Assembly (NCBI GenBank): GCA_040754625.1
Contig: JBFMCF010000071.1
Location: 1-32,808, forward strand
Length of the DNA stretch: 32,808 bases
Direction: 5' to 3'
DNA from: a bacterium
GTDB taxonomy: Bacteria > JACRDZ01 > JAQUKH01
Shown here one piece after another: positions 3,728-32,525 of the stretch. Under the pieces are notes generated by a model. It had not been told where the DNA came from. It saw only the letters and a program-made list of their open reading frames with translations, and ran no database searches. The translations under genes and the position numbers were made by a program. The first letter of the stretch is position 1. Each line of letters begins with the position of its first letter.

Positions 3728-4507
3728 ATGAAAGTGGTGATTCTTGCAGGTGGAAGAGGAACAAGACTTAGTGAAGAGACCGGCATGGTTCCCAAACCAA
3801 TGATTGAAATCGGCGGGAAACCAATACTATGGCATATCATGAAAATATATTCACATTATGGTTATAATGAATTCATTATCTGCCTGGGATATAAGGGTTA
3901 TATGATTAAAGAATATTTTTCTCATTATTTTTCACATATGAGTGATATAACAATTGATTTGGTTAATAATAAAACAATAATTCATAACACCTTGTCTGAA
4001 CCATGGAAAATAACCCTGGTAAATACCGGATTTGATACATTTACAGGCGGCAGGTTAAAAAGGATTCAAAGTTATATAAAAAATGAAAGCTTTATGATGA
4101 CTTACGGAGATGGTGTGGGAAATGTAAATATTAAAGAATTAGTTAAAAATCATAAAAAAAGTAAAAAATACGTCACCCTGACTGCGGTCAAAGCCTCAGA
4201 ACGGTTTGGGATTTTGGATATTAAAAAGGATAAAAGTAATATTTTAAATTCGTTTAATGAAAAACCAGAGATAACTGATAATTGGATAAATGCCGGCTTT
4301 TTTGTGCTGGAACCGGAAATATTCGGTTATATAAAAGGTGACTATACATGGTGGGAGAAAGAACCATTGGAGAGCCTTGCAAAAAATAGCCAGGTAGTTG
4401 CCTATAAGCATTCAGGTTTTTGGAAACCCATGGATACACTGAGGGATAAAAACGAATTAGAACAGCTATGGCAGTCAAATAAAGCCTTATGGAAGCTTTG
4501 GGAATAA
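3728..4507 (+). CDS. rfbF: Glucose-1-phosphate cytidylyltransferase
   Basis: The enzyme makes CDP-glucose from CTP and glucose 1-phosphate, the first step of CDP-6-deoxy and 3,6-dideoxyhexose synthesis. The 259-residue length is the family norm. The N-terminus has the nucleotide-binding LAGGRGTRLSEET, Lys23 in VPKPMIEIGGKPILWHI, and TYGDGVGN with the metal-binding Asp128. The SEETGMVPKPM and EPWKITLVNTG segments are characteristic of RfbF rather than RmlA or GalU. AAGGAAA precedes the ATG. It is the first cluster gene after the promoter at 3611-3639, 15 bases upstream of its pathway partner rfbG. Confidence 0.95.
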   Translation: MKVVILAGGRGTRLSEETGMVPKPMIEIGGKPILWHIMKIYSHYGYNEFIICLGYKGYMIKEYFSHYFSHMSDITIDLVNNKTIIHNTLSEPWKITLVNTGFDTFTGGRLKRIQSYIKNESFMMTYGDGVGNVNIKELVKNHKKSKKYVTLTAVKASERFGILDIKKDKSNILNSFNEKPEITDNWINAGFFVLEPEIFGYIKGDYTWWEKEPLESLAKNSQVVAYKHSGFWKPMDTLRDKNELEQLWQSNKALWKLWE

Positions 4508-4522
4508 AAATTAAATTTTTTT

Positions 4523-5491
4523 ATGAACAACTTTTGGAAAAACAAGAGGATTTTGGTTACCGGTTATGAAGGATTTTTAGGGTCAAACCTCACTAAATGG
4601 TTATTGAATAATAAAGCCAGGATTATTGGAATTGACATAGATGTTAGACGGGATAAAACAATTCTTACAGAAAATGACTATGACAAAATAACTGTAATAA
4701 AAGGTAATATTTCCGATTTTGATTTTTTAAAGGAAATTATTTCGAAATATAAAATTGAAATTATTTTTCATCTCGCGGCGGAGGCAATTGTTGAAAGGGC
4801 ATTAAAAGATCCTTTAAAAACATTTTCTTCAAATATTGAAGGTACCTGGAATATTTTAGAAGCATGCAGGCAGTATGGAAAAGTCGGGACAATTATTATT
4901 GCATCAAGCGACAAAGCATATGGCAGCCACAAAAAGCTTCCCTATAAGGAGGATGCTCCTTTAATCGGTAATCATCCTTACGATGTATCCAAAAGCTGTG
5001 CAGATTTAATTGCTTACGCTTATTATCACACTTATAATTTACCTGTTGCGGTCACACGCTGTGGCAATATATACGGCCCGGGTGATTTTAATTTTTCAAG
5101 AATAATTCCGGATGCAATAAGATGTTTAATTACAGGTGAAACTTTATTGATTAGAAGCGATGGCAGATTTACCAGAGATTATGTTTATGTGGATGATATT
5201 GTAAACGGATATGTTATGCTTGCGGAAAAAATGAAGAAAAAGAAATTGCAGGGAGAAGTTTTTAACTTCAGCGATGAAAATCCTCTGGCAGTAATAAAGC
5301 TTTTAGAGATAATATCAGCATTAACAAAACAGAAATTAAATTATAGGGTTTTAAACAAAGCAAAATATGAGATAAAAGACCAATTTTTAGATTCTTCAAA
5401 AGCCAGAAGACTTCTGGGATGGAAACCAAAATACACATTGAAGGAAGGATTTAAAGAAACAATTGAATGGTATAAAAGATATTTCAGCTGA
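4523..5491 (+). CDS. rfbG: CDP-glucose 4,6-dehydratase
   Basis: This extended short-chain dehydrogenase of 322 residues would convert CDP-glucose to CDP-4-keto-6-deoxyglucose with bound NAD. The Rossmann glycines are G14, G17 and G20 in VTGYEGFLGS. The active site has Ser-Ser-Asp-Lys at 128-131, the Asp-Lys pair marking a 4,6-dehydratase, and Tyr153-x3-Lys157. RCGNIYGPGD and SRIIPDAIR match the substrate-binding region of RfbG. It is about 35 residues shorter than the enterobacterial enzyme. The assignment leans on the adjacent rfbF. No Shine-Dalgarno is visible; the ATG is preceded by a run of Ts. Confidence 0.88.
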   Translation: MNNFWKNKRILVTGYEGFLGSNLTKWLLNNKARIIGIDIDVRRDKTILTENDYDKITVIKGNISDFDFLKEIISKYKIEIIFHLAAEAIVERALKDPLKTFSSNIEGTWNILEACRQYGKVGTIIIASSDKAYGSHKKLPYKEDAPLIGNHPYDVSKSCADLIAYAYYHTYNLPVAVTRCGNIYGPGDFNFSRIIPDAIRCLITGETLLIRSDGRFTRDYVYVDDIVNGYVMLAEKMKKKKLQGEVFNFSDENPLAVIKLLEIISALTKQKLNYRVLNKAKYEIKDQFLDSSKARRLLGWKPKYTLKEGFKETIEWYKRYFS

Positions 5492-10789: not shown

Positions 10790-11849
10790 ATATAGAATTG
10801 ACAGCCATAAATTAATGTATCATATTGACCGGGTCAGTGATTGGCTGAAAGGAAAGACGGTTTATCCAATCTATATGGAAATTTCTCCTGCCGGGTGCTG
10901 CAATCACCGCTGTATATTTTGCGGGAAGGATTTTATGAAATACCGGCGCAGGTTTTTAGATACCGGTGTTTTTAAACAAAGATTAAAGGAAATGGGCAGA
11001 CTTGGAGTAAAAAGCATTATGTATGCCGGCGAGGGAGAGCCATTTTTACATAAAGATATCGCAGATATAATCGCTTTTACCAAAAAATCAGGTATCGATA
11101 TTGCAATAACAACAAACGGGGTGCTTTTTAATCAGGATTTAGCTGAAAAAACTCTGGCATACATTACCTGGATTAAAGTAAGTATTAATGCCGCCAAAAA
11201 AGACACCTACGCGAAAATCCACCATACAAGACCGGAAGATTTGGATAAGGTTTTCAAAAATATGGCTTATGCCGATGAGATACGCAAAAAGAAAAAATAT
11301 AACTGTACCCTTGGCATGCAAATTATCCTTTTGCCGGATAATTACAATGAAATAGAGTTATTGGCTAAAAAGGCCAGGTCTATCGGCATGGATTATCTCG
11401 TGGTGAAACCCTATTCACATCATCCCTTAAGCGAGACTAGTAAATTTAAAGATATTAAATACAGTAAATATCTTGATTTAGCTTCCAGGCTTAAGAAATA
11501 CAATACAAGGGATTTTAGTGTAATATTTAGAATATATTCGATGCAGAAGTGGGATGAAGCTCGGAAAAATTATAAACATTGTCTGGCGCTTACCTTCTGG
11601 GCATATATCGATGCAGGGGGGGATGTCTGGGCATGCAGCATGTATTTAACCAAAAACAAGTTCTATCTCGGAAACATTTATGAAAATACTTTTAAAGATA
11701 TATGGGAGAGCGAAAAGCGCAATGAACTTGTGCGCTGGGCATCACAGGATTTAAATACTGATAAATGCAGGGTTAATTGCAGGATGGATGAAGTGAATAG
11801 ATATCTTTGGGATCTGACACATCCTTCTGAACATGTAAATTTTATTTAA
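10782..11849 (+). CDS. Radical SAM/SPASM enzyme 1
   Basis: This 355-residue protein has the radical SAM iron-sulfur motif C40-x3-C44-x2-C47 (GCCNHRCIFCGK), a GEGEPFLH glycine-rich strand and ITTNG. The C-terminus has a SPASM-type region: YIDAGGDVWACSMY, LGNIYENTFKDIW and DKCRVNCRMDE, which normally binds one or two extra clusters. Such enzymes start reactions with a 5'-deoxyadenosyl radical. In sugar clusters, known relatives dehydrogenate or dehydrate carbohydrates, while others modify peptides; no peptide precursor is visible here. The GTG start overlaps the isomerase stop. The Cys spacing and the C-terminal VNFI ending parallel the second radical SAM gene at 14744. Confidence 0.88.
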   Translation: MDKYRIDSHKLMYHIDRVSDWLKGKTVYPIYMEISPAGCCNHRCIFCGKDFMKYRRRFLDTGVFKQRLKEMGRLGVKSIMYAGEGEPFLHKDIADIIAFTKKSGIDIAITTNGVLFNQDLAEKTLAYITWIKVSINAAKKDTYAKIHHTRPEDLDKVFKNMAYADEIRKKKKYNCTLGMQIILLPDNYNEIELLAKKARSIGMDYLVVKPYSHHPLSETSKFKDIKYSKYLDLASRLKKYNTRDFSVIFRIYSMQKWDEARKNYKHCLALTFWAYIDAGGDVWACSMYLTKNKFYLGNIYENTFKDIWESEKRNELVRWASQDLNTDKCRVNCRMDEVNRYLWDLTHPSEHVNFI

Positions 11850-12088: not shown

Positions 12089-12928
12089 ATGAAAGCTAAG
12101 CCGATTGATTTAGAAAAGAAAGCGGAGGAACTAAGGAAAGTAGTATTTAAGACTATTTGTTTAAGCGGGGGCGGCCATATCGCAGGATCGCTCTCTATTA
12201 TAGAAATACTGGAAGTCCTTTATAATGGGATTTTACGTATCAGCCCTAAAGAGCCTATGGCTTCAGAGAGGGACCGTTTTATTTTGAGTAAAGGGCATGC
12301 CGGAGTTTCTTTGTATGCAATACTAGCTGATTGTGGATTTTTCCCTAAAGAAGAACTTGATAGATTCGGCAAAGCGGGCAGCATTTTAGGAGGTCATCCT
12401 GATATGCACAAAGTACCTGGGATTGAGGCTTCTACCGGTTCTTTGGGGCACGGTTTTTGTTTCGGGACAGGAATTGCCCTGGCGGGAAAATTGGATAAAA
12501 AAGATTTCAGGGTTTTTGTTCTTTTAGGTGACGGTGAATGCCAGGAAGGTTCTATTTGGGAAACGGCAATGTTCGCGCCCCAGCATAAATTGGATAACCT
12601 GGTTGCCATAATTGATTACAATAAAATCCAGGCGCTTGACAGGCTTGACAAAATTGTTTCGCTTGAACCTTTGGCAGCTAAATGGACGGCCTTTGGCTGG
12701 GAAGTTAAAGAAGTTGATGGCCATAATGTTACACAGCTGCAAGAGGTTTTAGGCTGCGTCCCTTTTGTTAAAGGAAAGCCTAGTTTAATCATTGCCCATA
12801 CCATAAAGGGGAAAGGGATTTCTTTTATGGAGAATGTGGCAATTTGGCATTATCGCATGCCTAATCATGAAGAATTAAAAATCGCATGCAAAGACCTTAA
12901 TCTGGAAGACCTGCAGGATGAGCCATAA
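12089..12928 (+). CDS. Transketolase, N-terminal (ThDP-binding) subunit
   Basis: This 279-residue protein corresponds to the pyrophosphate-binding half of transketolase. It has GDGECQEGSIWETAMFA (147-163) with Asn178 (DYNK) completing the Mg-ThDP motif, and conserved histidines in GGHIAGS (H30), SKGHAG (H70), GGHPDMH (H103) and SLGHGF (H121). Together with the next gene it forms a split transketolase that moves two-carbon ketol units between sugar phosphates. It could supply sedoheptulose 7-phosphate to the GmhA- and HldE-like enzymes upstream; that is inference. No clear Shine-Dalgarno is present. It is the first gene behind the promoter at 11954-11982. Confidence 0.92.
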   Translation: MKAKPIDLEKKAEELRKVVFKTICLSGGGHIAGSLSIIEILEVLYNGILRISPKEPMASERDRFILSKGHAGVSLYAILADCGFFPKEELDRFGKAGSILGGHPDMHKVPGIEASTGSLGHGFCFGTGIALAGKLDKKDFRVFVLLGDGECQEGSIWETAMFAPQHKLDNLVAIIDYNKIQALDRLDKIVSLEPLAAKWTAFGWEVKEVDGHNVTQLQEVLGCVPFVKGKPSLIIAHTIKGKGISFMENVAIWHYRMPNHEELKIACKDLNLEDLQDEP

Positions 12929-13866
12929 TGCGAAATGCTTACATATCGACTTTATATGATTTAGCAAAAGCGGATAAACGTATACTTGCCCTCGTTGCTG
13001 ATAACGGAGCAATAGTTTATGATCAATTTTGCAGAGACTTTCCGGAACAGTTTTTAAATTTTGGTATTTCGGAAGCCAATATGATAAGTGTCGCGGCGGG
13101 TTTGGCTTCTTGCGGCAAAATACCTTTTGCTTATACTATATCTAATTTTATTACGATGCGTCCTTTTGAACAGGTGAGAAACGATGTGTGTTTACAGCGG
13201 ATGAATGTTAAATTAGTCGGCATCGGAGCGGGATTTATTTATAGTAATTTGGGGCCTACCCATCACTCTGTTGAGGATATTGCATTGATGCGCTCTTTGC
13301 CGGAAATGATAATTTTTTCTCCCGCGGATCCTTTGGAGGCCAGAAAAGCCACCTTTGCAGCAGCCGGGCACTTCGGCCCGGTTTATATACGTCTGTCCGC
13401 AGGCGGTACCCCTGATATATATACAGAGGATTATGATTTTAGGGTTGGCTGTGCAGTTACTCTGAGAAAAGGCAGAGATGTTTCAATTGTTGCAACAGGT
13501 GGTATAATCTATGAAGTTTTAAAAGCAGTTGAAAAATTAGAAGATTTAGGTGTTTCGGTGAGGTTAATAAATATGCACACCATAAAGCCCATTGATAAAG
13601 AAACAATTCTGCGTGCCGCTTTCGAAACAAAAGCGATTCTTACTGTCGAAGAGCATACCATCTATGGTGGATTAGGCAGCGCAGTATCTGAAGTAGTCTT
13701 GGAAGAAGCTAAGATTCCTATTTGTTTTAAGCGCTTAGGTTTGAAAGGGGTTTTCCCTTCAGGATATGGTTCTTATAATGAAATGAAAGAAATTAACGGC
13801 TTGTCCAAAGAAGATATCATTAGAGAATCAAAGACACTTATTGAAGATAAAAAATCACTAAAATGA
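12928..13866 (+). CDS. Transketolase, C-terminal (pyrimidine-binding) subunit
   Basis: This 312-residue protein carries the middle and C-terminal transketolase domains. Glu49 in FGISEANMISVAAGLA is the glutamate that activates the thiamine pyrimidine ring. GPTHHSVEDIALMRSLP and PVYIRLSAGG are typical of the middle domain, and SIVATGG and TVEEHTIYGGLGSAV of the C-terminal domain. The start overlaps the previous stop by one base (TAATG), so the two subunits should be made in equal amounts. Split transketolases are common outside central metabolism, for example in sugar-modification pathways. The sequence alone does not give donor or acceptor. Confidence 0.92.
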   Translation: MRNAYISTLYDLAKADKRILALVADNGAIVYDQFCRDFPEQFLNFGISEANMISVAAGLASCGKIPFAYTISNFITMRPFEQVRNDVCLQRMNVKLVGIGAGFIYSNLGPTHHSVEDIALMRSLPEMIIFSPADPLEARKATFAAAGHFGPVYIRLSAGGTPDIYTEDYDFRVGCAVTLRKGRDVSIVATGGIIYEVLKAVEKLEDLGVSVRLINMHTIKPIDKETILRAAFETKAILTVEEHTIYGGLGSAVSEVVLEEAKIPICFKRLGLKGVFPSGYGSYNEMKEINGLSKEDIIRESKTLIEDKKSLK

Positions 13867-14743: not shown

Positions 14744-15811
14744 ATGGGTTTGAAATATACAAAAATGAAGGTCTTTCACTATAAGGAAAAGTTAGACTCT
14801 TTGCCAGAGGGAAAAAGGATTTTGTCTCCCATTCATATCCGTATTAAGCCGACCAATGTTTGCAATCATAACTGCCGCTATTGCGCTTATCGGGTGGATA
14901 ATTTACAGCTTGGCAAAGATATGGTAACAAGAGATTATATTCCTAAGGAGAAAATGCTGGAAATAGTAAGAGATATGCGCGATATGAACGTAAAGGCGGT
15001 AACGTTCAGCGGTGGCGGAGAACCGTTTTGCTACCCCTATTTATTAGAAACAGTAAAGGAGTTAATAAAGGCCAAAATTAAATTCGCCTGCCTTACAAAT
15101 GGTTCATTGTTGACTGGAGAACTGGCGGAAGTTTTTGCGCGTCACGCGACGTGGCTAAGAATTTCTATGGACGGCTGGGACGATGCAAGTTACCGCCTTT
15201 ATCGCAGGGTCAGTGATAAAGAGTTCACCAAGATTGTAGATAATATGCGGCATTTTCAGCAATTAAGAGGGAACTGTAATTTGGGGGTCAGCCTTATTGT
15301 GGATAAAGATAATGCACCCCATATTTATGATTTTATCAAGAAGATAAGCTCTATCGGCGTCAATAGCATTAAGGTTTCTCCTTGTATAATAAGTAATAGC
15401 GGCAAAGAAAACAATGCCTATCATAGAGCAATATTCGATACGGTAAAAGAAAAGGTTTCCCGGTCAGTAAGCGATTTTTCAAGTAAAGATTTTGAGATTT
15501 TTGATTCATATCATTTGCTGGAGGAAAAATTCGCCAAAGATTACAACTGGTGCCCTTATCAACAGGTTCTTCCTGTTATCGGCGCGGATCTAAACATCTA
15601 TCCATGCCAGGATAAAGCGTATAATCTGGATGAAGGTTTGATTGGCTCTATTAAAAACCAGTCGTTTAAAGACTTCTGGTTTGGCGATAAAAACCAGTTC
15701 TTTAAAATTAATCCTTCGAAAGTTTGCAACCATCATTGTGTTGCAAACGAAAAAAATAAAATGATTCTTGAATATTTGAACACAGAAGAGGGGCATTTAG
15801 AGTTTGTATGA
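14744..15811 (+). CDS. Radical SAM/SPASM enzyme 2
   Basis: This 355-residue protein has C40-x3-C44-x2-C47 (NVCNHNCRYCAYR), VTFSGGGEPF for SAM binding, LTNGSLL, and a SPASM-type C-terminus with YNWCPYQQ, NIYPCQDKAY, IGSIKNQSFKDFW and KVCNHHCVAN. It has the same length and Cys positions as the enzyme at 10782 and a similar C-terminal ending (LEFV), so the two are probably diverged paralogues. The AAAGGG ribosome site is close to the ATG. The following reductase gene overlaps its stop, which suggests a radical oxidation or dehydration step coupled to an NAD(P)H step. Confidence 0.88.
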   Translation: MGLKYTKMKVFHYKEKLDSLPEGKRILSPIHIRIKPTNVCNHNCRYCAYRVDNLQLGKDMVTRDYIPKEKMLEIVRDMRDMNVKAVTFSGGGEPFCYPYLLETVKELIKAKIKFACLTNGSLLTGELAEVFARHATWLRISMDGWDDASYRLYRRVSDKEFTKIVDNMRHFQQLRGNCNLGVSLIVDKDNAPHIYDFIKKISSIGVNSIKVSPCIISNSGKENNAYHRAIFDTVKEKVSRSVSDFSSKDFEIFDSYHLLEEKFAKDYNWCPYQQVLPVIGADLNIYPCQDKAYNLDEGLIGSIKNQSFKDFWFGDKNQFFKINPSKVCNHHCVANEKNKMILEYLNTEEGHLEFV

Positions 15812-18541: not shown

Positions 18542-19309
18542 ATGTCATATGATATTTTAAACTCAGAATCAATGCTTAGATATATACCGCAGTGCTTTGA
18601 AAAAGATCTTACTATAATGATACCCTGTTATAATGAGGAGGGGAATATTATTGGCACATTCGATACCTTGATTCCTGTCTTATGTAAGATGCCATTTTCC
18701 TGGGAAATTATAGTTATTGATGATGCCTCGCATGATAATTCTAAGGAACTTATACGGGGTTATATTAACTCACACCCGCATTATTGTATTAGCTTGAAGG
18801 TAAGGGAGAAAAATGCCGGTCTTGCACAAAATTATTATGATGGAGCATTTTTAGCCAGAGGTAAATATTATAGATTGATTTGTGCGGATAATACCGAGCC
18901 AAAAGAGACCTTGGAAAAAATTTTCAGTTTATTTGGCAAAGCCGATTTAATTATACCGTATCACGTTAAAGCAGAAGGCCGTACTTTTTTTAGAAAGACG
19001 CTTTCAAAGACTTATACTATTCTTGTAAATTTAATAGGCGGACATAAAATAAAATACTATAATGGATGTGCCTTGGGTCTTACCTATCTGGTGAAGCGTT
19101 GGCATACGGGTTATAACGGTTTCTGTTTCCAGGCAGATATTGTTACTAGAGCAATAGAGCAGGGTTTTAGTTATTTGGAAATTCCAGTTATAGCGCAAGA
19201 AAGAAAGTCAGGCATTTCAAGAGCACTTCGGTTAAGAAATTTTCTGTCTGTAGCCCATTTTTTTTTAGATTTAGTAATTCGTCGTGTGAACAGAATCTGC
19301 TTTGATTAA
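18542..19309 (+). CDS. Family 2 glycosyltransferase
   Basis: This 255-residue GT-A enzyme begins its fold at TIMIPCYNEEGNI, followed by VIDDASHDNSKE and AGLAQNYYDGAFLARGKYY. The metal-binding position reads ICADNTEP in place of the usual DxD, so the metal site is slightly unusual. ERKSGISRALRLRNF near the C-terminus matches the loop that binds polyprenyl phosphate in DPM1-like enzymes. No transmembrane helices are present, unlike the second GT2 at 25252. GAGGTGA precedes the ATG. It overlaps the next small membrane-protein gene, which may supply its anchor. Confidence 0.87.
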   Translation: MSYDILNSESMLRYIPQCFEKDLTIMIPCYNEEGNIIGTFDTLIPVLCKMPFSWEIIVIDDASHDNSKELIRGYINSHPHYCISLKVREKNAGLAQNYYDGAFLARGKYYRLICADNTEPKETLEKIFSLFGKADLIIPYHVKAEGRTFFRKTLSKTYTILVNLIGGHKIKYYNGCALGLTYLVKRWHTGYNGFCFQADIVTRAIEQGFSYLEIPVIAQERKSGISRALRLRNFLSVAHFFLDLVIRRVNRICFD

Positions 19310-19832
19310 TTCTTTCTCAAAAAATAATGTGAAAAGGGGAGTTGTGAAAATACTATTTTTGGGTTTAGGGATATTTGGTTTAGCGTTTATTTTACAGATG
19401 GTTGTGTGGAAAGTGCATTTGCCTAAAAGGCATACAAAAACAATATTAGAATTGTTTTTTTCTGTTTTTCTTGTTAGTTTTATTTTTTTTAGCCGTTTAT
19501 CTTTGCAGGGTTATGAATATATTCATATTGGATTTTTTTATATCTCTTTAACTTTATTTTATATCATGAACTATTCAGCAATAGAAGCTGATAGCCCGTC
19601 TTTATTAATGCTTTTAGAAATTTCCAAAGCAGGAAACAAAGGGGTAAAAAAGGAAGAATTTTTGAATAATTTACCTGATGATTTATTGGTAATATCCAGG
19701 ATCGATGCTCTTGTTCTTGAAAAAATGGCGTATATCGATAAGGATAAATATTATATTACGAAAAAAGGTATAATTTTTGTTCGGGTTTTTGTGCTGTATA
19801 GAAGGTTTTTAAAATTACCTGAAGGAGGTTGA
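19302..19832 (+). CDS. Small membrane protein with winged-helix-like C-terminus (copy 1)
   Basis: This 176-residue protein has three to four hydrophobic segments in residues 12-90. The soluble tail has the pattern of a winged helix: LLMLLEISKAGNKGVKKEEF, a recognition-helix-like ISRIDALVLEKMAYI, then KDKYYITKKG, the usual wing before a final glycine. It is a structural analogue of the next gene, so the two look like a tandem pair. The start overlaps the glycosyltransferase stop by 8 bases. No function is known to me; membrane anchoring or assembly of the adjacent glycosyltransferase is one possibility, membrane-bound regulation another. Confidence 0.65.
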   Translation: MINSFSKNNVKRGVVKILFLGLGIFGLAFILQMVVWKVHLPKRHTKTILELFFSVFLVSFIFFSRLSLQGYEYIHIGFFYISLTLFYIMNYSAIEADSPSLLMLLEISKAGNKGVKKEEFLNNLPDDLLVISRIDALVLEKMAYIDKDKYYITKKGIIFVRVFVLYRRFLKLPEGG

Positions 19833-19835
19833 CAA

Positions 19836-20372
19836 TTGCATATTGGATATTTACAGTTATCGGTTCCGATAATAGCTTTATTATTTAATGCACTTACACA
19901 GATCAGTTTTTATAAAATTATTCCCAGGCTGGGTTTGTTAAAATCAGAATATGCGGGATTTATTTCAGGCTGTTTTTTAATTTTGGTAATTGAGGTGTGG
20001 ATATTTTTATCAGGCGGTGCTGCGTTAAGTAATGTGATAGCCATATCGGCTGTTAATTTTATTATATATTTTTGTTTAGGGTTCTTATATTTTGCTTTTA
20101 TTAATCTGGGAGAGACTGCCATAAGAATAAGGTTATTAAGGGAGCTATTGAATGCAAAAGAAGGGCTTTCTTTTAAAGAAATATTATGCCGGTATAATAC
20201 TAATGAAATTATTGAGAGACGGATCAAGAGAATGGAAAAAAACAGGCAAATTATCTGTATGAATGATGGAAGCTATCACATTGGGAATAATTTTTTATTG
20301 TTGATTGCCAAAACTATGGTACTGCTTAAATTGGTCATCTTAGGCAAAAAAGTGAGTTTAGTTAAAAAGTAA
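19836..20372 (+). CDS. Small membrane protein with winged-helix-like C-terminus (copy 2)
   Basis: This 178-residue protein has about four hydrophobic segments (residues 3-95), then FINLGETAIRIRLLREL leading into a helix-turn-helix-like part with KEILCRYNTNEIIERRIKRM and a wing-like RQIICMNDGSYHIG. The layout repeats that of the preceding protein. The start codon is TTG, well supported by AAGGAGG at 19822-19828, which lies within the last codons of the upstream gene and 7 bases before the TTG. The final 30 residues contain another hydrophobic stretch. I recall such proteins next to GT2 genes in polysaccharide loci but know no assigned function. Confidence 0.65.
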   Translation: MHIGYLQLSVPIIALLFNALTQISFYKIIPRLGLLKSEYAGFISGCFLILVIEVWIFLSGGAALSNVIAISAVNFIIYFCLGFLYFAFINLGETAIRIRLLRELLNAKEGLSFKEILCRYNTNEIIERRIKRMEKNRQIICMNDGSYHIGNNFLLLIAKTMVLLKLVILGKKVSLVKK

Positions 20373-20404: not shown

Positions 20405-22204
20405 ATGGTTAAACTTTCTGATTATGTAATTGATTTTTTGGTCAGAAAAAAAATTTCTGATATTTTTATGATAAGCGGAGGCGGCATTATCCATCTTGTT
20501 GAATCGGCAGGAAACAACAAGGCAATAAACTATTTTTGTAACTATAATGAGCAGGCTACTACTTATTGCGCAGAAGGATATGCGAGATTAAAAAATAATG
20601 TTTCAGTGAGTTTAGTAACAACAGGTCCGGGAAGCACAAACGCAATTTCCGGAGTTGCGAGCGCATGGGTCGATTCGGTCCCTGTAGTCGTTATTTCAGG
20701 CCAGGTAAAAAGAGAATTGATCGCTGATTATACCAAACTGAGGCAGATAGGCGAGCAGGAAATTAATATTATCGATATAGTCAGGCCGATTACCAAATAC
20801 GCGGTCACAGTTGATTCAGCAAAAATGATAAAATATGAATTGGAAAAGGCGTTTTATACGGCCGTTAATAATAGGCCCGGGCCTGTATGGATAAATATCC
20901 CGCTTGATGTACAGGGGAGTTTTATAAATGAAAAAGATCTGGTTTCCTTTAAAACAGAAGCCCGTGATCCCGCCAGGAAAAAAAGATACCTTAAAAGTAA
21001 AGTAAAAAAAGCGGTTGATATTCTTAAAAAATCAAAAAGACCGGTTATGATATGCGGTTATGGAATAAGACTGGCGGGGGCTGAAAAGTTGCTCAGTGAA
21101 ACTTTGAAGAGCATTCATATTCCTGTTTTGCTTTCATTTAACGGCATGGATTTACTTCCGGAAAACCATTTTTTATTTACCGGGAAGCCCGGGATTATCG
21201 GCCAGCGCCGGGCTAATTTTGCCTTACAGAATTCAGATTGCGTTTTAAGCGTGGGTTCAAGGCTTAATATTAAAATAGTTGGTTATGATTACAAAAATGT
21301 TGCTTTAAAGGCAAAGAAAATTATAGTTGATATAGACAAGGAAGAATTAAAAAAACCTACAATTTCGGCGGATTTACCAATAGAAGCTGACGCAAAAGAT
21401 TTTCTTGAAGAATTATTAAAGCAGGTTAAAAAAGAAAAACTTGATGTACCTGAAAATTGGATTGAGGCCTGTAAAAAGTGGAAGAAACGTTATCCGGGTA
21501 TCACGCCAGAATTTTTAAAAGATAGAAAACATGTAAATACTTATGTGTTTTATGATAGGCTTTCAAAATTATCCAGCCGGCAAGATGTAATTTTAAGCGG
21601 GAATGCCTTGTCCGCGTTATGCCTTTATCAGGCTTTTAAAGTCAAAGAAAAACAGCGGGTATTTACAAATAACGGGTATGGAGCAATGGGATGGGATTTG
21701 CCTGCGAGTATAGGCGCGTGTATCGCCAATAATAAAAAGCGGACTATCTGTGTTACCGGTGACGGCAGTATAAATATGAACATCCAGGAGCTTATGATGG
21801 TCCGGCATTATAACCTGCCGGTAAAAATATTTATTTTTAATAATTCAGGGTATACATCGATCAGGTTGACCCAGGACACATTTTTTAAAGGGCATTATGT
21901 AGGTTCCGATGCAAATTCAGGTGTAAGTAATCCAAATTTTCAGAAGATCGCTCATGCCTACAATTTACCTTATGAGAAAATTTCCAATAACAATGAATTG
22001 GATGAAAAAATAAAAAAGGTTTTATCTTCGGATGGGCCAGTGTTTTGTGAATTAAATGTGTCTCCGGCTCAGGGTGTGGTGCCAAAAACCACTTCTTATA
22101 AAAAAGAAGACGGAAGTTTTGAATCAAGGCCGCTGGAAGACATGTTTCCATTTTTATCAAGAGAAGAATTAAGGGAAAATATGCGGATTTCCGAAGATGA
22201 TTAG
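20405..22204 (+). CDS. Thiamine-diphosphate enzyme, acetolactate-synthase-like (YerE-type candidate)
   Basis: This 599-residue protein has the three-domain layout of acetohydroxyacid synthase: an N-terminal pyrimidine domain with catalytic Glu49 (CNYNEQATTYCAEGYAR), a central domain (GYGIRLAGAEKLL), and a C-terminal GDGS (452-455) with Asn480 closing the Mg-ThDP site. The tail reads ESRPLEDMFPFLSREEL. In Yersinia, YerE of this family adds a two-carbon unit from pyruvate to the C4 ketone of CDP-3,6-dideoxy-4-ketoglucose, a substrate that RfbF, RfbG and RfbH would lead towards. A role in branched-sugar synthesis is therefore plausible but not proven. I prefer ATG 20405 over the TTG at 20378. 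Confidence 0.85.
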   Translation: MVKLSDYVIDFLVRKKISDIFMISGGGIIHLVESAGNNKAINYFCNYNEQATTYCAEGYARLKNNVSVSLVTTGPGSTNAISGVASAWVDSVPVVVISGQVKRELIADYTKLRQIGEQEINIIDIVRPITKYAVTVDSAKMIKYELEKAFYTAVNNRPGPVWINIPLDVQGSFINEKDLVSFKTEARDPARKKRYLKSKVKKAVDILKKSKRPVMICGYGIRLAGAEKLLSETLKSIHIPVLLSFNGMDLLPENHFLFTGKPGIIGQRRANFALQNSDCVLSVGSRLNIKIVGYDYKNVALKAKKIIVDIDKEELKKPTISADLPIEADAKDFLEELLKQVKKEKLDVPENWIEACKKWKKRYPGITPEFLKDRKHVNTYVFYDRLSKLSSRQDVILSGNALSALCLYQAFKVKEKQRVFTNNGYGAMGWDLPASIGACIANNKKRTICVTGDGSINMNIQELMMVRHYNLPVKIFIFNNSGYTSIRLTQDTFFKGHYVGSDANSGVSNPNFQKIAHAYNLPYEKISNNNELDEKIKKVLSSDGPVFCELNVSPAQGVVPKTTSYKKEDGSFESRPLEDMFPFLSREELRENMRISEDD

Positions 22205-22228
22205 AACCGGCTTATGAAACCGCTTCTA
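22204..22228 (-). repeat. Right copy of the inverted repeat pair, itself near-palindromic
   Basis: The reverse complement matches 7552-7576 at 23 of 25 positions. Starting at 22201, TTAGAACCGG pairs with CCGCTTCTAA (9 of 10) around CTTATGAAA, so this copy can form a hairpin. It overlaps the TAG stop of the ThDP enzyme gene and lies just before the strong ribosome site of the next gene. Confidence 0.75.
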
Positions 22229-22236
22229 AACAAAAT

Positions 22237-22245
22237 AGGAGGGGG
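22237..22245 (+). promoter_or_regulatory. Strong ribosome-binding site of the NeuB-like gene
   Basis: AGGAGGGGG ends two bases before ATG 22248; its AGGAGG core is 5 bases from the start codon. It is the strongest such site between 20 and 26 kb and lies right after the hairpin-forming repeat. Confidence 0.6.
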
Positions 22246-22247
22246 CT

Positions 22248-23759
22248 ATGGAAAAAAACAATGGTATATTTGATAAATTATTTATTTTTGAAATGGCTAA
22301 TAATCACATGGGGAGTACCGAACATGGATTAAAAATAATCAGGGAACTGAATGATGCGCGGAAAAATTTCAATTTTAAATTCGCGTTTAAACTTCAATAC
22401 CGCCATTTAGATACTTTTATTCATCCTGATTATAAAGATAGAATGGATGTAAAATATGTAAAAAGATTTTCAGAAACAAAATTGGACGAAAACCAATTTA
22501 AGGTTTTAAAGGATGAAATCAGCAGGTTAGGCTTTATTTCTATTTGTACGCCATTTGATGAAACTTCAGTCGGTTTGATAGAAAAACATAAATTCGACAT
22601 TATAAAAATCGGGAGTTGTTCTTTTACAGACTGGCCGCTGCTGGAAAGAATTGTTAAAACTAATAAACCTGTTATTGCCTCTATTGCCGGAGCTTCCCTG
22701 GAAGAAATAGACAAAGTAGTCAGTTTTTTTGACCACCGCAATAAAAATTTTGCCTTGATGCATTGTGTGGCTGAATATCCGACAAAAAACAATAATCTGC
22801 AGCTAAATCAGATTGACCTGATAAAATCAAGATATCCCCATTTAAAAGTGGGTTATTCTTCCCACGAACATCCGGACAGTCTTGATTCAATTAAAATAGT
22901 TATTGCTAAAGGTGCTGGTATTTTTGAAAGGCATGTCGGTGTAAGGTCAGACAAGATTAATCTCAATGATTATTCATCAACGCCGGAACAAATTCATAAA
23001 TGGCTGGAGGCTGCAGAAACGGCTTTTGAAATTTGCGGGATTAGCGGGAAAAGAATAAAGCCAGTTGAGAGCGAAATGGCAAGTTTACAAGGTTTAAAAA
23101 GAGGGGTTTTTGCCAAAAGGATGATTAAAAAGGGAGAAAAAATCGGGCCCGGAGATGCTTTTTTTGCAATTCCCACGGTAAAAGACCAAATTACGGCCAA
23201 TGATATATCAAAATATACCGAATTTTCCGCGGTCTCGGATATTGACAGGAATATGCCTTTATTGTTATCGAATACAAAACAGATAGATAACAGGGAAAAG
23301 GTTTATAAAATAGTACAGGAGATAAAAAAAGTTATACAAAAAAGCGGTGTTTTTGTCCCCAATAAATTAGACCTGGAGATTTCACATCATTATGGTATTG
23401 ACCGCTTTTTAGAATGTGGATGCACAATTATTAATTTTGTTAACAGGGAATACTGTAAAAAACTTATTGTTCTTATTCCCGGGCAAAGCCACCCTGAGCA
23501 GTATCATAAATTAAAAGAAGAAACATTTTATATATTGTCAGGAGAAGTAAATTTTGTTTTTGATGGAAAAGAACGGGTTTGCGGCCCAGGAGAAATAGCT
23601 GTGGTAGAACGGGGGGTAAAGCACATTTTCAGCAGCAAAACCGGGGCTGTAATTGAAGAAATTTCTTCGACACATTATAAAGATGATTCCTATTACACAG
23701 ATAAAGAAATATTGAAAAATGACAATAGAAAAACTTTAATTACTTATTGGGTGAGTTAA
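22248..23759 (+). CDS. NeuB-family synthase fused to SAF-like and cupin domains
   Basis: Residues about 10-265 form the NeuB barrel, which condenses phosphoenolpyruvate with an aldose to make a 2-keto-3-deoxy sugar acid. FEMANNHMG (Glu15), KLQY (Lys48), GYSSHEH (His206) and FERHVG (His229) fit the substrate and metal residues. Residues about 280-345 look like a SAF domain (GVFAKRMIKKGEKIGPGDA). Residues about 375-490 are a cupin resembling D-lyxose isomerases: HPEQYHKLKEETFYILSGE, PGEIAVVERGVKH and DDSYYTD. One expected cupin metal ligand appears as Gln418. No CMP-sugar synthetase is present. The setting with a ThDP enzyme, HAD and SDR suggests an uncharacterised sugar acid. Confidence 0.85.
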   Translation: MEKNNGIFDKLFIFEMANNHMGSTEHGLKIIRELNDARKNFNFKFAFKLQYRHLDTFIHPDYKDRMDVKYVKRFSETKLDENQFKVLKDEISRLGFISICTPFDETSVGLIEKHKFDIIKIGSCSFTDWPLLERIVKTNKPVIASIAGASLEEIDKVVSFFDHRNKNFALMHCVAEYPTKNNNLQLNQIDLIKSRYPHLKVGYSSHEHPDSLDSIKIVIAKGAGIFERHVGVRSDKINLNDYSSTPEQIHKWLEAAETAFEICGISGKRIKPVESEMASLQGLKRGVFAKRMIKKGEKIGPGDAFFAIPTVKDQITANDISKYTEFSAVSDIDRNMPLLLSNTKQIDNREKVYKIVQEIKKVIQKSGVFVPNKLDLEISHHYGIDRFLECGCTIINFVNREYCKKLIVLIPGQSHPEQYHKLKEETFYILSGEVNFVFDGKERVCGPGEIAVVERGVKHIFSSKTGAVIEEISSTHYKDDSYYTDKEILKNDNRKTLITYWVS

Positions 23760-23767
23760 TTTTTAAA

Positions 23768-24340
23768 ATGAAAACAATTGTCTGGGATGTAGATGATGTC
23801 CTTAACGACCTTATGCGTTGTTGGTTTGAACAGAGCTGGTTACTGGCCCATCCGGAATGTAAATTAAAATATGAAAATCTAAAAGAGAACCCGCCGCATA
23901 AAATATTAGGGGTAAGTTTAAAAGAATACCTGGCTTCATTGGATAAATTTCGTATTTCTGCGAAAGCCCGGAAAATGCGTCCTGTCCGGGAAGTTTTAGA
24001 TTGGTTTATTAAAAACGGCGGCAGTTACCGTCATATGATTTTGACCTCGCGCCCCTTGCGAACAATCCCGGATTTGTCAAACTGGGTATTTTATTTTTTT
24101 GGACCTTGGATAAGAGGGTTTTATTTTGTCCCTTCCGAACGTGAAGGCGAGAATATTGTTAAATATGACCGGGATAAATATGATTATCTCAAGTGGTTTG
24201 GAAAAGCGGACATTTTTATTGATGATAGTCCCGATAATATTCAAAGTGCGGAAAAACTGGGGATTAAAGTCATTTTGATGCCTCGTCCGTGGAATAAAAG
24301 CAGGTTAACAATTAATAAAACCCTAAGTTTATTGAAATAA
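23768..24340 (+). CDS. HAD-superfamily phosphatase-like protein
   Basis: This 190-residue protein begins MKTIVWDVDDVLNDL, where Asp7 is the HAD nucleophile and Asp9 the acid/base. MILTSRPL (motif II) and FIDDSPDNIQSAEKLG (motif IV, paired aspartates) complete the active site. The layout resembles 5'(3')-deoxyribonucleotidases, but neighbours point to a sugar phosphate, perhaps dephosphorylating the NeuB product. I chose ATG 23768; a TTG at 23747 would overlap the upstream stop and add 7 residues. I recall the same protein beside NeuB-cupin genes elsewhere, which supports a fixed module. Confidence 0.82.
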   Translation: MKTIVWDVDDVLNDLMRCWFEQSWLLAHPECKLKYENLKENPPHKILGVSLKEYLASLDKFRISAKARKMRPVREVLDWFIKNGGSYRHMILTSRPLRTIPDLSNWVFYFFGPWIRGFYFVPSEREGENIVKYDRDKYDYLKWFGKADIFIDDSPDNIQSAEKLGIKVILMPRPWNKSRLTINKTLSLLK

Positions 24341-24358
24341 TATTTTCATTTTGATTTT

Positions 24359-25243
24359 ATGAAAAAAATATTTATTACAGGCGGATCCGGGTTCATCGGC
24401 CGTAATTTAAAAGAACAGTTGAGTAATGGCTATAAGATATTTGCGCCGGCAAGCGCAGATATTAATTTGCTTGATGAAAATTTAGTTTCAGAATATATAA
24501 AAAAGAATGATTTTGATATCATAATTCACTGTGCAACATGGAACGCCACCAGAAATTCTAAAAAAAATATTTCCGAAGTGCTGGACAATAACTGCCGCAT
24601 GTTTTTTAATCTTGCAAGATGCAGCAGCTTTTATGGAAAAATGATTTATTATGGCTCCGGAGCTGAATATGACAGGGACCACTGGATGCCAAAAATGAAC
24701 GAAAATTATTTTGATACTTATGTTCCAAAAGATGGGTATGGTTTTTCAAAATATATAATGGAATTATATGCTGAGCGTGCAGAAAACATATATAATTTGC
24801 GGCTGTTCGGTGTGTTTGGCAAATATGAAGACTGGGAAATACGGTTTATCTCAAATGCGTGCTGTAAAGCCCTCTGGGACCTGCCAATAACTATAAAACA
24901 AAATGTATTTTTTGATTATATGTATATTGATGATCTTGTAAAAATAACAAAATGGTTTATAGAAAACCAGCCGCGGGAAAAAACTTATAATATTTGTTCC
25001 GGGAAAATTTTTGATTTGCTGACACTCACAAAGAAAATTTTAACAATATCCGGTAAGAATCTTGATATAATTATTAAAACCGGCGGTTTCGGCGTTGAAT
25101 ACAGCGGTGACAATACAAAGCTTATTAATGAAATTGGCAAACATGATTTTGAAGATATGGATATTTCAATAAAAGAATTATATAACTGGTATATGGTTAA
25201 TAAGAACAGTATCGATAAAAGTAAACTTCTTGTTGATAAATAG
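24359..25243 (+). CDS. NAD-dependent epimerase/dehydratase (SDR)
   Basis: This 294-residue extended SDR has ITGGSGFIGRNL at the N-terminus, YYGSGAEYDRDHW for the catalytic Ser, and KDGYGFSKYIMEL for Tyr-x3-Lys. INLLDENLVSEYIKKN and LRLFGVFGKYEDW resemble GDP-fucose-synthase-type enzymes. It ends the ThDP/NeuB/HAD/SDR run and may reduce or epimerise the sugar they make, or act on the CDP-4-keto sugar. No Shine-Dalgarno is visible; the ATG follows a T-rich stretch. It is 18 bases after the HAD gene. Confidence 0.8.
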   Translation: MKKIFITGGSGFIGRNLKEQLSNGYKIFAPASADINLLDENLVSEYIKKNDFDIIIHCATWNATRNSKKNISEVLDNNCRMFFNLARCSSFYGKMIYYGSGAEYDRDHWMPKMNENYFDTYVPKDGYGFSKYIMELYAERAENIYNLRLFGVFGKYEDWEIRFISNACCKALWDLPITIKQNVFFDYMYIDDLVKITKWFIENQPREKTYNICSGKIFDLLTLTKKILTISGKNLDIIIKTGGFGVEYSGDNTKLINEIGKHDFEDMDISIKELYNWYMVNKNSIDKSKLLVDK

Positions 25244-25251
25244 GAGAAAAC

Positions 25252-26187
25252 ATGAGGTTAATTAGTGTAATAACACCTTGTTATAATGAGGAAGAAAATG
25301 TAGAAAAATTATATCAAAGTGTTAGAGATGTTTTTTTGGAATTAAATAATTACCGGTATGAACATATTTTTATTGATAACGCCTCGGAAGATAAAACTGT
25401 TGATATACTGAAGCGGATTGCCGGGAAAGACAAAAATGTAAAAATTATTGTAAATTTAAGAAATTTTGGGCATATTCGTTCTCCCTATCACGCGTTACTT
25501 CAGGCAAGAGGTGATGCAGTAATAGGTATGGCGGCAGATTTTCAGGACCCGCCGCCGTTAATTAAAGATTTTATAAAGAAGTGGGAGGAGGGTTTCAAAA
25601 TAGTAATTGGGAGAAAAATAAACAGTGAAGAAAATCCTTTTATGTTTGGTTTAAGAAGGCTTTATTATAATTTTATTCAGAAATGCTCACAAACCCGCCA
25701 GATAAAAAATTTCACAGGTTTTGGCTTGTATGATAAAAAATTCATTGATATTTTAAAACAACTTAATGAACCTTATCCTTATTTCAGAGGGCTTATTGCC
25801 GAACTTGGATTTGAAATTGCTGAAATAGAATATTTTCAGCCAGGCAGGAAAAAAGGCAAAACAAAAAATAATTTTTACACTTTATACGATATGGCAATTC
25901 TTGGGTTTGTAAGCTATTCCAAAGTGCCCTTAAGAGTAGCAACTTTTATTGGCATAATAACCGCTATAATCAGTTTTATCGTGGCCTTGCTATATTTTGT
26001 TTATAAGATTATCTTCTGGGATAGTTTTTCTGTGGGAATGGCACCTTTAGTCATCGGACTTTTTTTCTTTTCATCTATTCAGCTGTTTTTCCTTGGGATA
26101 ATAGGGGAATATATTGGTGCCATTTACACCCAGGTTAAAAATAGGCCGTTAGTTATTGAAAAAGAACGGATTAATTTTGACAATTAG
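25252..26187 (+). CDS. Family 2 glycosyltransferase with C-terminal membrane domain (GtrB/ArnC-like)
   Basis: This 311-residue protein has a GT-A domain starting at ISVITPCYNEEENVEKL, FIDNASEDKT, a nucleotide-sugar/metal motif MAADFQDPPP and an RKKGKTKNNFYTLYDMA loop near the membrane. Two C-terminal transmembrane segments (about 228-250 and 264-292) end in IGEYIGAIYTQVKNRP, the hallmark of polyprenyl-phosphate glycosyltransferases such as GtrB and ArnC. It would transfer a sugar from a nucleotide donor to undecaprenyl phosphate, whose product could feed GT-C enzymes like those at 5500 and 28580. GGAGAAA precedes the ATG. Confidence 0.9.
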   Translation: MRLISVITPCYNEEENVEKLYQSVRDVFLELNNYRYEHIFIDNASEDKTVDILKRIAGKDKNVKIIVNLRNFGHIRSPYHALLQARGDAVIGMAADFQDPPPLIKDFIKKWEEGFKIVIGRKINSEENPFMFGLRRLYYNFIQKCSQTRQIKNFTGFGLYDKKFIDILKQLNEPYPYFRGLIAELGFEIAEIEYFQPGRKKGKTKNNFYTLYDMAILGFVSYSKVPLRVATFIGIITAIISFIVALLYFVYKIIFWDSFSVGMAPLVIGLFFFSSIQLFFLGIIGEYIGAIYTQVKNRPLVIEKERINFDN

Positions 26188-30902: not shown

Positions 30903-32525
30903 ATGATTAAAATTTTAAATATCGGAGATATTTTTATTTATCCGGCAGCACCCCGGGTGGTTCTTATCGTTTCACAGCCTGACTCGGAGGGAAATGTGCA
31001 GGCAATTTCCGGGGTTACTGATATTGAGAAAAGTAATAACAAGCGGTACCAACTGGTTATTAAAAAAAGTGATTTGAGGGAAGGAAGTCTGGATAAACCA
31101 ATTAATTTTTCCTTTAGAACGCAAACTGCTGTAAATAAAAAGTTTTTACATAAAAAGATAGGCACAGTAGATAATGAAAAGATTGAAAATATTTTGCGCC
31201 TAATAATATCAGGCAATATAAAATCTTTTTATAAAGCTGTTTATAAACCTTTACAGGAAAAAGAGTTTGTTGAGGGTAAATCAAAAATATCTTATGCAGG
31301 CAGGGTCTTTGATGAAAAAGAAATGATTGGCTTGATTAACAGCTCGCTTGATTTTTGGCTTACTGCCGGAAAGTATGCAGAAAAATTCGAAAAAAAATTC
31401 GCCAATTATTTAAATGTCAAATATTGCTCTTTGACAAATTCCGGCTCATCAGCTAATCTTTTGGCTTTTATGGCATTAACGTCGCCAAAGCTTGGAGAAA
31501 AAAGAATAAAAAAAGGAGATGAAGTTATAACAGTTGCCGCAGCATTTCCCACGACAGTTACCCCAATAATACAATATGGGGCAGTTCCGGTATTCATTGA
31601 TATAACATTGCCCACTTATAATATAGATTGCAAACGGCTTGAAGAAGCTTTATCAAATAAAACACGGGCGGTTATGATTGCGCATACATTAGGCAATCCT
31701 TTTAATGTCAAGGCCGTTAAAGATTTTTGTGATAAACATAATTTATGGCTGATTGAAGATAATTGTGATTCGCTGGGTTCAAAATATCTATTAAACAATG
31801 AATGGAAATACACAGGCAGTTTTGGTGACCTTGGGACGTCAAGTTTCTATCCCCCGCATCATATAACGATGGGGGAAGGAGGCGCTGTGTATACAAATCA
31901 TAAACAACTTAAACTTATAATTGAGTCATTTCGTGACTGGGGAAGAGATTGTTTTTGTGTTTCAGGCCGTGATAACAGCTGTCAAAAACGTTTTAAACAA
32001 CAACTGGGAGAATTACCTTATGGGTATGACCATAAATATGTTTATTCCCATTTTGGATATAACCTTAAAGTAACTGACATGCAGGCTGCAATAGGATGTG
32101 AACAATTAGAAAAACTGCCGGATTTTATTGAAGCGAGAAAACAAAATTGGCGGTTACTAAAAAACGGTTTATCAGACTTATCTGATAAACTTATGTTACC
32201 TGAAGCAACACAGGGGTCAGATCCCAGTTGGTTTGGTTTCCTGATAACAATACGTGACGATGCCGGTTTTAAAAGAGAGGATTTTGTGAATTATCTTGAA
32301 TCCAATGGCATCCAAACAAGAATGTTGTTTGCGGGCAATATTATCAAGCACCCCTGCTTTGATGAGTTACGAAAGAGCGGTGAGGGATATAGAGTTATCG
32401 GTGATTTGATAAATACAAATATAGTAATGAACAATGCCTTTTGGATAGGGGTTTACCCGGGTTTAAAAGATAAAATGATTGAGTTTGTAATTAAATGTAT
32501 TTACGAATTCAGTAAAAAGAAATAA
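30903..32525 (+). CDS. rfbH: CDP-6-deoxy-4-hexulose 3-dehydratase with N-terminal MazF/PemK-like extension
   Basis: Residues about 120-540 match RfbH (E1), the PMP- and [2Fe-2S]-dependent enzyme removing the C3 hydroxyl from CDP-4-keto-6-deoxyglucose. His319 in FYPPHHITMGEGG replaces the lysine of ordinary aminotransferases. The cluster cysteines are C288, C350, C352 and C360; the x1 and x7 gaps are canonical, and the first gap is 61 instead of 57 because of a 4-residue loop insertion. Normal RfbH is about 437 residues; the extra 100 N-terminal residues resemble MazF/PemK (GDIFIY, PRVVLIV, FRTQTAVNKKFLHKKIG). No Met occurs between residues 1 and 141, so the start at 30903 is needed. The E3 reductase is not in the window. 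Confidence 0.93.
   Translation: MIKILNIGDIFIYPAAPRVVLIVSQPDSEGNVQAISGVTDIEKSNNKRYQLVIKKSDLREGSLDKPINFSFRTQTAVNKKFLHKKIGTVDNEKIENILRLIISGNIKSFYKAVYKPLQEKEFVEGKSKISYAGRVFDEKEMIGLINSSLDFWLTAGKYAEKFEKKFANYLNVKYCSLTNSGSSANLLAFMALTSPKLGEKRIKKGDEVITVAAAFPTTVTPIIQYGAVPVFIDITLPTYNIDCKRLEEALSNKTRAVMIAHTLGNPFNVKAVKDFCDKHNLWLIEDNCDSLGSKYLLNNEWKYTGSFGDLGTSSFYPPHHITMGEGGAVYTNHKQLKLIIESFRDWGRDCFCVSGRDNSCQKRFKQQLGELPYGYDHKYVYSHFGYNLKVTDMQAAIGCEQLEKLPDFIEARKQNWRLLKNGLSDLSDKLMLPEATQGSDPSWFGFLITIRDDAGFKREDFVNYLESNGIQTRMLFAGNIIKHPCFDELRKSGEGYRVIGDLINTNIVMNNAFWIGVYPGLKDKMIEFVIKCIYEFSKKK

Follow-up and report, generated by a model that had tools for sequence, protein, structure and literature searches.

The locus considered here raises the question of which sugar is made by four adjacent genes encoding a ThDP carboligase, a NeuB-SAF-cupin fusion, a HAD phosphatase and an SDR, and whether these four constitute a conserved pathway by themselves. 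They lie within the window, the whole 32,808-nucleotide stretch of DNA that was analysed (Table 1). As the initial annotation had described, the four genes are intact, closely packed and all on the plus strand, and its statement that NeuC, NeuA and PseB homologues are missing was borne out for the window by Pfam and NCBIfam searches of the main ORFs and by tblastn, in which two CMP-synthetase queries found no CMP-synthetase. A standard nonulosonic acid pathway was ruled out by the missing NeuA, NeuC and PseB genes together with the low scores of the fusion, the only NeuB copy in the genome, against the N-acyl sialic/legionaminic/pseudaminic synthase equivalogs (125 and 110 bits, below the cut-offs of 400 and 340). 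Genes for RfbF, an RfbG-like protein and RfbH are also present in the window and had been overlooked.

Table 1. Coordinates and assignments of the window genes discussed in the text
Product	Position	Strand	Basis
RfbF, glucose-1-phosphate cytidylyltransferase	3728..4507	+	NCBIfam TIGR02623, 399.8 bits, cut-off 300
RfbG-like CDP-glucose 4,6-dehydratase	4523..5491	+	best NCBIfam TIGR02622, 234 bits, below cut-off 278
ThDP carboligase, YerE/JanthE-like	20405..22204	+	Pfam TPP_enzyme N, M, C; JanthE 8rph E=4e-124
NeuB-SAF-cupin fusion	22248..23759	+	Pfam NeuB PF03102 residues 47-263, Cupin_2 407-464
HAD phosphatase, putative (deoxyribonucleotidase-like fold)	23768..24340	+	family alignment and AlphaFold model
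SDR	24359..25243	+	Pfam Epimerase PF01370
GT2 membrane glycosyltransferase	25252..26187	+	Pfam Glycos_transf_2
RfbH, CDP-4-keto-6-deoxyglucose 3-dehydrase (3-deoxygenation)	30903..32525	+	NF011936, 734.7 bits, cut-off 423

Enzymes encoded in the window

The rfbF and rfbG genes are spaced by 16 bp and are located ~17 kb from the NeuB gene, with rfbH at a distance of ~7 kb. RfbH, the sole copy over the cut-off in the genome, has a His in place of the PLP lysine (SSFYPPHHITMGEGG, HHITMGEGG), the iron-sulphur Cys motif CFCxxxxxxxC and an N-terminus extended by ~95 aa, and no reductase partner was identified for it within the window. The three proteins are proposed from their family matches, with RfbG below its curated cut-off, to make the acceptor CDP-4-keto-3,6-dideoxyglucose, with RfbF acting first, and this acceptor is the substrate of YerE and ErwE (PMC12247030; PMC12188165).

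Residues E58 and N489 of the ThDP enzyme were invariant in an alignment of 73 homologues, in which the ThDP motif was GDG in 49 and SDG in 24, that of JanthE being CDG. Its closest solved relative is JanthE of Janthinobacterium sp. HH01 (8rph), a match that outscores the best AHAS structure by ~190 bits. The next solved relatives follow at E-values of ~1e-66 (AHAS) and 2e-65 (5ahk, which we take to be PpYerE). The position of the AHAS gatekeeper Trp (yeast W586) is T498 in the window enzyme and T, M, S or A across the 73 homologues, never W. Acetolactate synthase (TIGR00118) is the best NCBIfam match, at 389 bits far below the cut-off of 538, and a further AHAS-like gene is located at C97 in the genome. 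These four observations speak strongly against an identity as acetolactate synthase, and by sequence the enzyme belongs with the YerE/JanthE-like carboligases. JanthE, which is YerE-like, couples alpha-keto acids with ketones and takes 4-hydroxy-2-oxovalerate, the DmpG product, as a substrate (PMC12188165), and the donor of YerE is pyruvate (PMC12247030). The physiological substrates of YerE-like biocatalysts are stated to be mostly unknown (PMC12188165; PMC12247030).

The AlphaFold model of the NeuB-cupin protein (pLDDT 92) gave Foldseek matches to 3g8r, NeuB 1xuu and D-lyxose isomerase 2y0o/7nzp. Residues K120, H206, E227 and H229, equivalent to the PEP/metal residues K129, H215, E234 and H236 of NmNeuB, were invariant in 49 homologues, as were the cupin metal-ligand residues H420, E425 and H459. 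The D-lyxose isomerase 2y0o (YdaE) was the best solved relative of the cupin half, with a match spanning all of it; fold and sequence match are shared with this enzyme and 7nzp, and the cupin here, known from sequence, is joined to NeuB-SAF. Lyxose-isomerase-like cupins interconvert ketoses and aldoses. The fusion is proposed to unite a NeuB-family PEP-condensing synthase and a D-lyxose isomerase-like cupin, a prediction from sequence and model.

The PEP-binding barrel, the SAF domain and the conserved metal and PEP residues are common to the fusion and the NeuB, LegI and PseI synthases, whereas the attached cupin, the missing NmNeuB substrate Arg and the lack of a NeuA partner set it apart; its product is also proposed to lose the carboxylate, unlike theirs. 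The Arg in question, Arg314 of the NmNeuB SAF domain, is on the substrate side and tied to the N-acetyl group (PMC6795526). It had no counterpart in the 49 homologues, which have I, F, M or Y at the aligned position and no Arg near, and its absence fits a non-acetamido aldose as the NeuB substrate.

The HAD gene had no Pfam matches. Its AlphaFold model (pLDDT 97.6) has a fold resembling 5'(3')-deoxyribonucleotidases, and D7, D9, D10, K137 and D153, including the D7-x-D9 motif, were invariant in 33 homologues.

Conservation and exchange of genes across loci

The neighbourhood survey covered 80 NeuB-cupin loci, 33 of them with ~10 kb of flank on either side. A ThDP gene was present in 74 of the 80 and RfbH in 56, against 34 for a window-type HAD and 17 for the window SDR. 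The four genes that had been taken as a unit were rejected as such because HAD and SDR are optional. HAD and SDR types differ from locus to locus and HAD is missing from compact operons; at 32 of the 80 loci the HAD family of the window lies no more than 1 kb from NeuB-cupin. All 33 fully flanked loci, which come from many phyla, had ThDP, while 30 had RfbH, 29 RfbG and 25 RfbF. The conserved unit is NeuB-cupin, a YerE/JanthE-like ThDP enzyme and RfbF/RfbG/RfbH, all of which are in the window. The expectation of the initial annotation that the pathway would be conserved in other polysaccharide loci held for the pairing of ThDP and NeuB-cupin, which recurs, but not for a set of four.

RfbG homologues adjoin NeuB-cupin in 51 of the 80 loci, and Chromobacterium and Rhodocyclales have the order rfbF-rfbG-rfbH-neuB/cupin-ThDP almost without gaps. 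When the search was begun from the ThDP gene, NeuB-cupin directly adjoined the JanthE-like enzyme in 7 of 13 Burkholderiales genomes. Protein distance correlations were highest among NeuB-cupin, ThDP and RfbH (0.62-0.71, 37 shared loci), a result given little weight as species kinship contributes to it. The NeuB-cupin class occurs in many lineages of Bacteria and in some of Archaea, and it includes a distant clade (43% identical; L106-L109) that has neither ThDP nor RfbH but a CMP-sugar-acid-type cytidylyltransferase instead, and five Hyphomicrobiales genomes carry this clade without RfbH. Use of NeuB-cupin as a strict marker for RfbH pathways was ruled out, the distant clade being accompanied by CMP-synthetase.

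Other makers of keto acids occur in place of NeuB-cupin in related loci, namely an HpcH/HpaI aldolase (L100, L101, L103, L129) and DmpF with DmpG (L128, which holds the nearest JanthE relative found), and L104 has a NeuB without the cupin. The YerE-type pathways of yersiniose, erwiniose and caryophyllose likewise combine CDP-4-keto-3,6-dideoxyglucose genes, a YerE-like ThDP enzyme and a neighbouring gene able to supply an alpha-keto acid, although their donor is pyruvate itself or comes from a DmpG or HpcH/HpaI aldolase, and the keto-acid maker of the window is the NeuB-cupin fusion. A general rule is suggested whereby the keto-acid maker adjoining the ThDP gene predicts the branch.

Proposed pathway and alternatives

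The cassette probably builds a C4-branched 3,6-dideoxyhexose with a long branch, using a NeuB-made keto acid and ThDP transfer. RfbF, RfbG and RfbH would give CDP-4-keto-3,6-dideoxy-D-glucose. The cupin half would supply an aldose, perhaps a pentose through lyxose-isomerase-type chemistry, from which the NeuB half would form a 2-keto-3-deoxy sugar acid by condensation with PEP. The HAD is proposed to take phosphate off either this aldose or the acid. Decarboxylation of the acid by the ThDP enzyme would leave an acyl chain, which the same enzyme would attach at the C4 ketone of the CDP-sugar; the SDR would reduce the ketone left beside the branch point, and a glycosyltransferase would pass the branched sugar to the polysaccharide. 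The expected branch would be 2'-deoxy and two carbons longer than the aldose. This reading draws on the identities of the genes, on conserved active sites, on clustering and on relatives in which another keto-acid maker takes the place of NeuB; from these we infer each catalytic step, the identity of the aldose and the link to the Mycobacterium gastri sugar described below. The product is most likely a long-branch sugar of a known kind, with a donor route that to our knowledge is undescribed. For the NeuB-cupin class as a whole we see an even chance that it yields, in place of a sugar acid for display, a keto acid made to be sacrificed: the carboxyl would be lost and the remainder grafted by a ThDP enzyme onto a nucleotide sugar, building higher-carbon sugars of the gastriose type.

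Two separate sugars might instead be made, a yersiniose-like acetyl branch from ThDP and pyruvate and an ulosonic acid, from NeuB-cupin, that enters the glycan directly. Pyruvate is the donor of YerE itself (PMC12247030) and RfbFGH clusters with ThDP but no NeuB do occur (L102, L110, L112, L113), but a separate ulosonic acid needs a CMP-synthetase, of which there is none in the window and only weak indication near NeuB-cupin in 3 of 80 loci, while one does accompany the distant clade; the association with ThDP in 33 of 33 loci would also be left without explanation, and we regard this reading as unlikely. The initial annotation had offered a sugar acid or a branched sugar as the product. The branched sugar is favoured, whereas the lack of an accompanying CMP-synthetase makes it unlikely that the pathway of the window's clade ends with a free sugar acid.

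A sugar acid would result if the order were reversed, with ThDP forming a ketose, the cupin converting it to an aldose and NeuB adding PEP. Such an order suits both the ThDP-NeuB-cupin-HAD arrangement of the window and the known ketose/aldose chemistry of these cupins, yet it gives no role to RfbF, RfbG and RfbH, lacks a CMP-synthetase, and sits poorly with a distant clade that manages without ThDP and with JanthE, the nearest characterised ThDP relative, coupling keto acids with ketones (PMC12188165). We consider it quite improbable. That the ThDP gene should encode an ordinary acetolactate synthase and lie in the locus by chance, as its best NCBIfam match could suggest, is scarcely credible given the scores, the residues at the W586 place and the second AHAS-like gene noted above.

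The branched sugar proposed to arise through a NeuB-derived keto acid has a likely counterpart in the gastriose of M. gastri lipooligosaccharide, as the same NeuB-cupin/ThDP/RfbFGH cassette occurs in that species (L034, L105). According to titles in the reference lists of two papers, this lipooligosaccharide contains a C4-branched 3,6-dideoxy-xylo-hexopyranose (PMC5706390, PMC7261415). The earlier description of the gene set as being without a known product was thus too strong, and the shared cassette allows the product class to be proposed for the window. Gastriose was described in 1993-94, MygE is a ThDP enzyme tied to it, and its branch is a 1,3-dimethoxy-tetrahydroxyheptyl chain, of the length expected from a pentose plus PEP minus CO2. 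We know of no description of the genes supplying the gastriose donor, although this route may have been proposed earlier.

In M. gastri RfbH and a close homologue of the ThDP enzyme each occur once, both adjoining NeuB-cupin, and the cassette continues with HAD, two methyltransferases and SDR. The HAD, of another family than that of the window, and the two methyltransferases set the M. gastri cluster apart. Of 199 mycobacterial genomes, 10 had RfbH, and the 6 with NeuB were all among these 10 (hypergeometric 2.6e-9, with kinship ignored).

On the proposed route the long side chain of gastriose would have a source that can be put to the test, and 3g8r, an orphan structure bearing the label 'spore coat polysaccharide biosynthesis protein E', would gain a role. 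The route would also predict native donors for a large group of YerE-like biocatalysts and imply that long-branch sugars are far commoner than the few known structures. The GT2 is a candidate transferase for the branched sugar, and the loci L101, L102, L104 and L105, the last from M. gastri, each have a related glycosyltransferase adjoining ThDP.

Gene set and acceptor pathway

The four genes that the initial annotation had read as a possible undescribed sugar pathway were recovered at its positions, oriented in the same direction with almost no gaps between them, and the absence of NeuA, NeuC and PseB that it claimed was confirmed by a search of the window, which found no homologue of any of the three. 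The source genome carries a single NeuB copy. Two adjoining small putative membrane proteins, 176 and 178 aa long and alike in layout, belong to no Pfam family.

Features of the window discussed in the text
Feature	Position	Strand
RfbF	3728-4507	
RfbG-like	4523-5491	
683 aa protein	5500-7551	
HldE-like	8602-10137	
GmhA-like	10214-10789	
Radical SAM protein	10782-11849	
Split transketolase (two genes)	12089-13866	
Radical SAM protein	14744-15811	
Small putative membrane protein pair	19302-20372	
ThDP enzyme	20405-22204	+
NeuB-SAF-cupin	22248-23759	+
HAD	23768-24340	+
SDR	24359-25243	+
RfbH	30903-32525	
RfbH additional N-terminal stretch	30903-31190	

Overlooked initially were RfbF (glucose-1-phosphate cytidylyltransferase, over the curated cut-off), RfbG (CDP-glucose 4,6-dehydratase-like, the best match yet under cut-off) and RfbH (734.7 bits against a cut-off of 423), which together form CDP-4-keto-3,6-dideoxyglucose in an established pathway. 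RfbH, of which the source genome has no further copy above cut-off, retains the 3-dehydrase cysteines and the His replacing the PLP lysine; no redox partner for it was identified within the window. It also carries an additional N-terminal stretch of ~95 aa.

The ThDP enzyme and the NeuB-cupin fusion

The closest solved relative of the ThDP enzyme was JanthE (8rph, E=4e-124), compared with ~1e-66 for acetolactate synthases and 5ahk, which we take to be PpYerE. JanthE is a YerE-like enzyme joining keto acids to ketones, its physiological substrates being unknown, and CDP-4-keto-3,6-dideoxyglucose is the substrate of YerE and ErwE (PMC12188165, PMC12247030). Across 73 homologues the activating Glu E58 was invariant and the AHAS-marking Trp occurred in none, and a separate AHAS-like gene is present elsewhere in the source genome. 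The ThDP-binding motif GDG was replaced by SDG in 24 of the 73, these being NeuB-linked (loci L043, L046, L058, L073, L081 and others); JanthE has a published variant of its own, CDG. In a tree of 88 enzymes, 68 NeuB-linked members formed one supported group while the window's enzyme fell outside it, in a separate small group adjoining NeuB-less rows, and the pairing with NeuB-cupin may therefore have more than one origin or have been exchanged.

Every catalytic residue of the barrel was invariant in a full-length alignment of 49 NeuB-cupin homologues. The AlphaFold model (pLDDT 92) matched 3g8r, NeuB and PseI by Foldseek in its first half and D-lyxose isomerases in its second, 3g8r being a truncated homologue from Chromobacterium. 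The Arg of NmNeuB that touches the substrate N-acetyl group (PMC6795526) had no counterpart in this alignment, which is consistent with a plain aldose substrate.

Recurrence and a candidate branched sugar

Among 80 NeuB-cupin loci, found via NeuB, ThDP was present in 74, RfbH in 56, RfbG in 51 and RfbF in 48. The recurring gene set noted initially thus stood for the ThDP and NeuB-cupin pair, whereas the HAD (34) and SDR (17) of the window's type were far less constant. With ~10 kb of flank on both sides, ThDP occurred in 33/33 loci and RfbH in 30/33. The hosts are drawn from many bacterial phyla and include some archaeal bins, where MAG binning errors are possible. Since the 80 loci were NeuB-selected, reverse searches from ThDP and RfbH were run: NeuB-cupin directly adjoined the JanthE-like enzyme in 7 of the 13 Burkholderiales genomes that carry one, and of 199 mycobacterial genomes ten had RfbH and six NeuB, all six within the RfbH-positive set.

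Mycobacterium gastri has a single RfbH and a single close ThDP homologue, both adjoining NeuB-cupin, in a cluster continuing with HAD, two methyltransferases and SDR. Its sugar branch is 1,3-dimethoxy-4,5,6,7-tetrahydroxyheptyl, with seven carbons, a 2-deoxy position and two O-methyls. We infer a chemistry throughout in which the ThDP enzyme would decarboxylate a NeuB-made 2-keto-3-deoxy acid and add the chain to C4 of the CDP-sugar; in M. gastri a pentose joined to PEP with loss of CO2, then reduced once and methylated twice, would account for this branch. Work cited in two papers describes a C4-branched 3,6-dideoxy-xylo-hexopyranose as typical of M. gastri (PMC5706390, PMC7261415), and MygE has been assigned to its branched sugar (PMC12247030). 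Caryophyllose of M. marinum, 4-C-[1,3,4,5-tetrahydroxyhexyl], shares the 2'-deoxy signature. The window SDR would reduce the branch ketone, as a dedicated reductase of a different family does in the paulomycin pathway (PMC4753412). A literature search found no link between NeuB and YerE-type enzymes, though this NeuB route may have been proposed earlier.

Putative alternative donor makers and other locus features

Also compared were relatives that encode RfbFGH together with a YerE-like enzyme yet lack NeuB-cupin. Four (L100, L101, L103, L129) had an HpcH/HpaI aldolase and a dehydroquinate-synthase-like gene, and L104 had a NeuB without the cupin. In L128 (5624-10413) genes for acetaldehyde dehydrogenase and the DmpG (4-hydroxy-2-oxovalerate) aldolase adjoin that of the nearest JanthE relative found (53%, likewise with CDG), which suggests 4-hydroxy-2-oxovalerate as the native donor there; JanthE accepts this compound (PMC12188165). 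Judged from gene content, the predicted donor maker is an interchangeable module. A distant NeuB-cupin clade (L106-L109, Hyphomicrobiales, ~43% identical) lacked ThDP and RfbH and carried a CMP-sugar-acid-type cytidylyltransferase and a Gfo/Idh oxidoreductase, with HAD in two loci; its product is probably a CMP-activated sugar acid. As one clade pairs with ThDP and RfbH and the distant one with the cytidylyltransferase, NeuB-cupin appears to yield a keto acid that can be used in either of two ways.

Elsewhere in the polysaccharide locus, an HldE-like protein with the nucleotidyltransferase domain ahead of the kinase domain adjoins a GmhA-like isomerase, a possible second heptose-type pathway. 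The 683 aa protein had no significant match in Pfam or NCBIfam. The locus also holds two radical SAM proteins and a transketolase split over two genes; keto-sugar branching by split transketolases has been proposed in other systems (PMC12247030).
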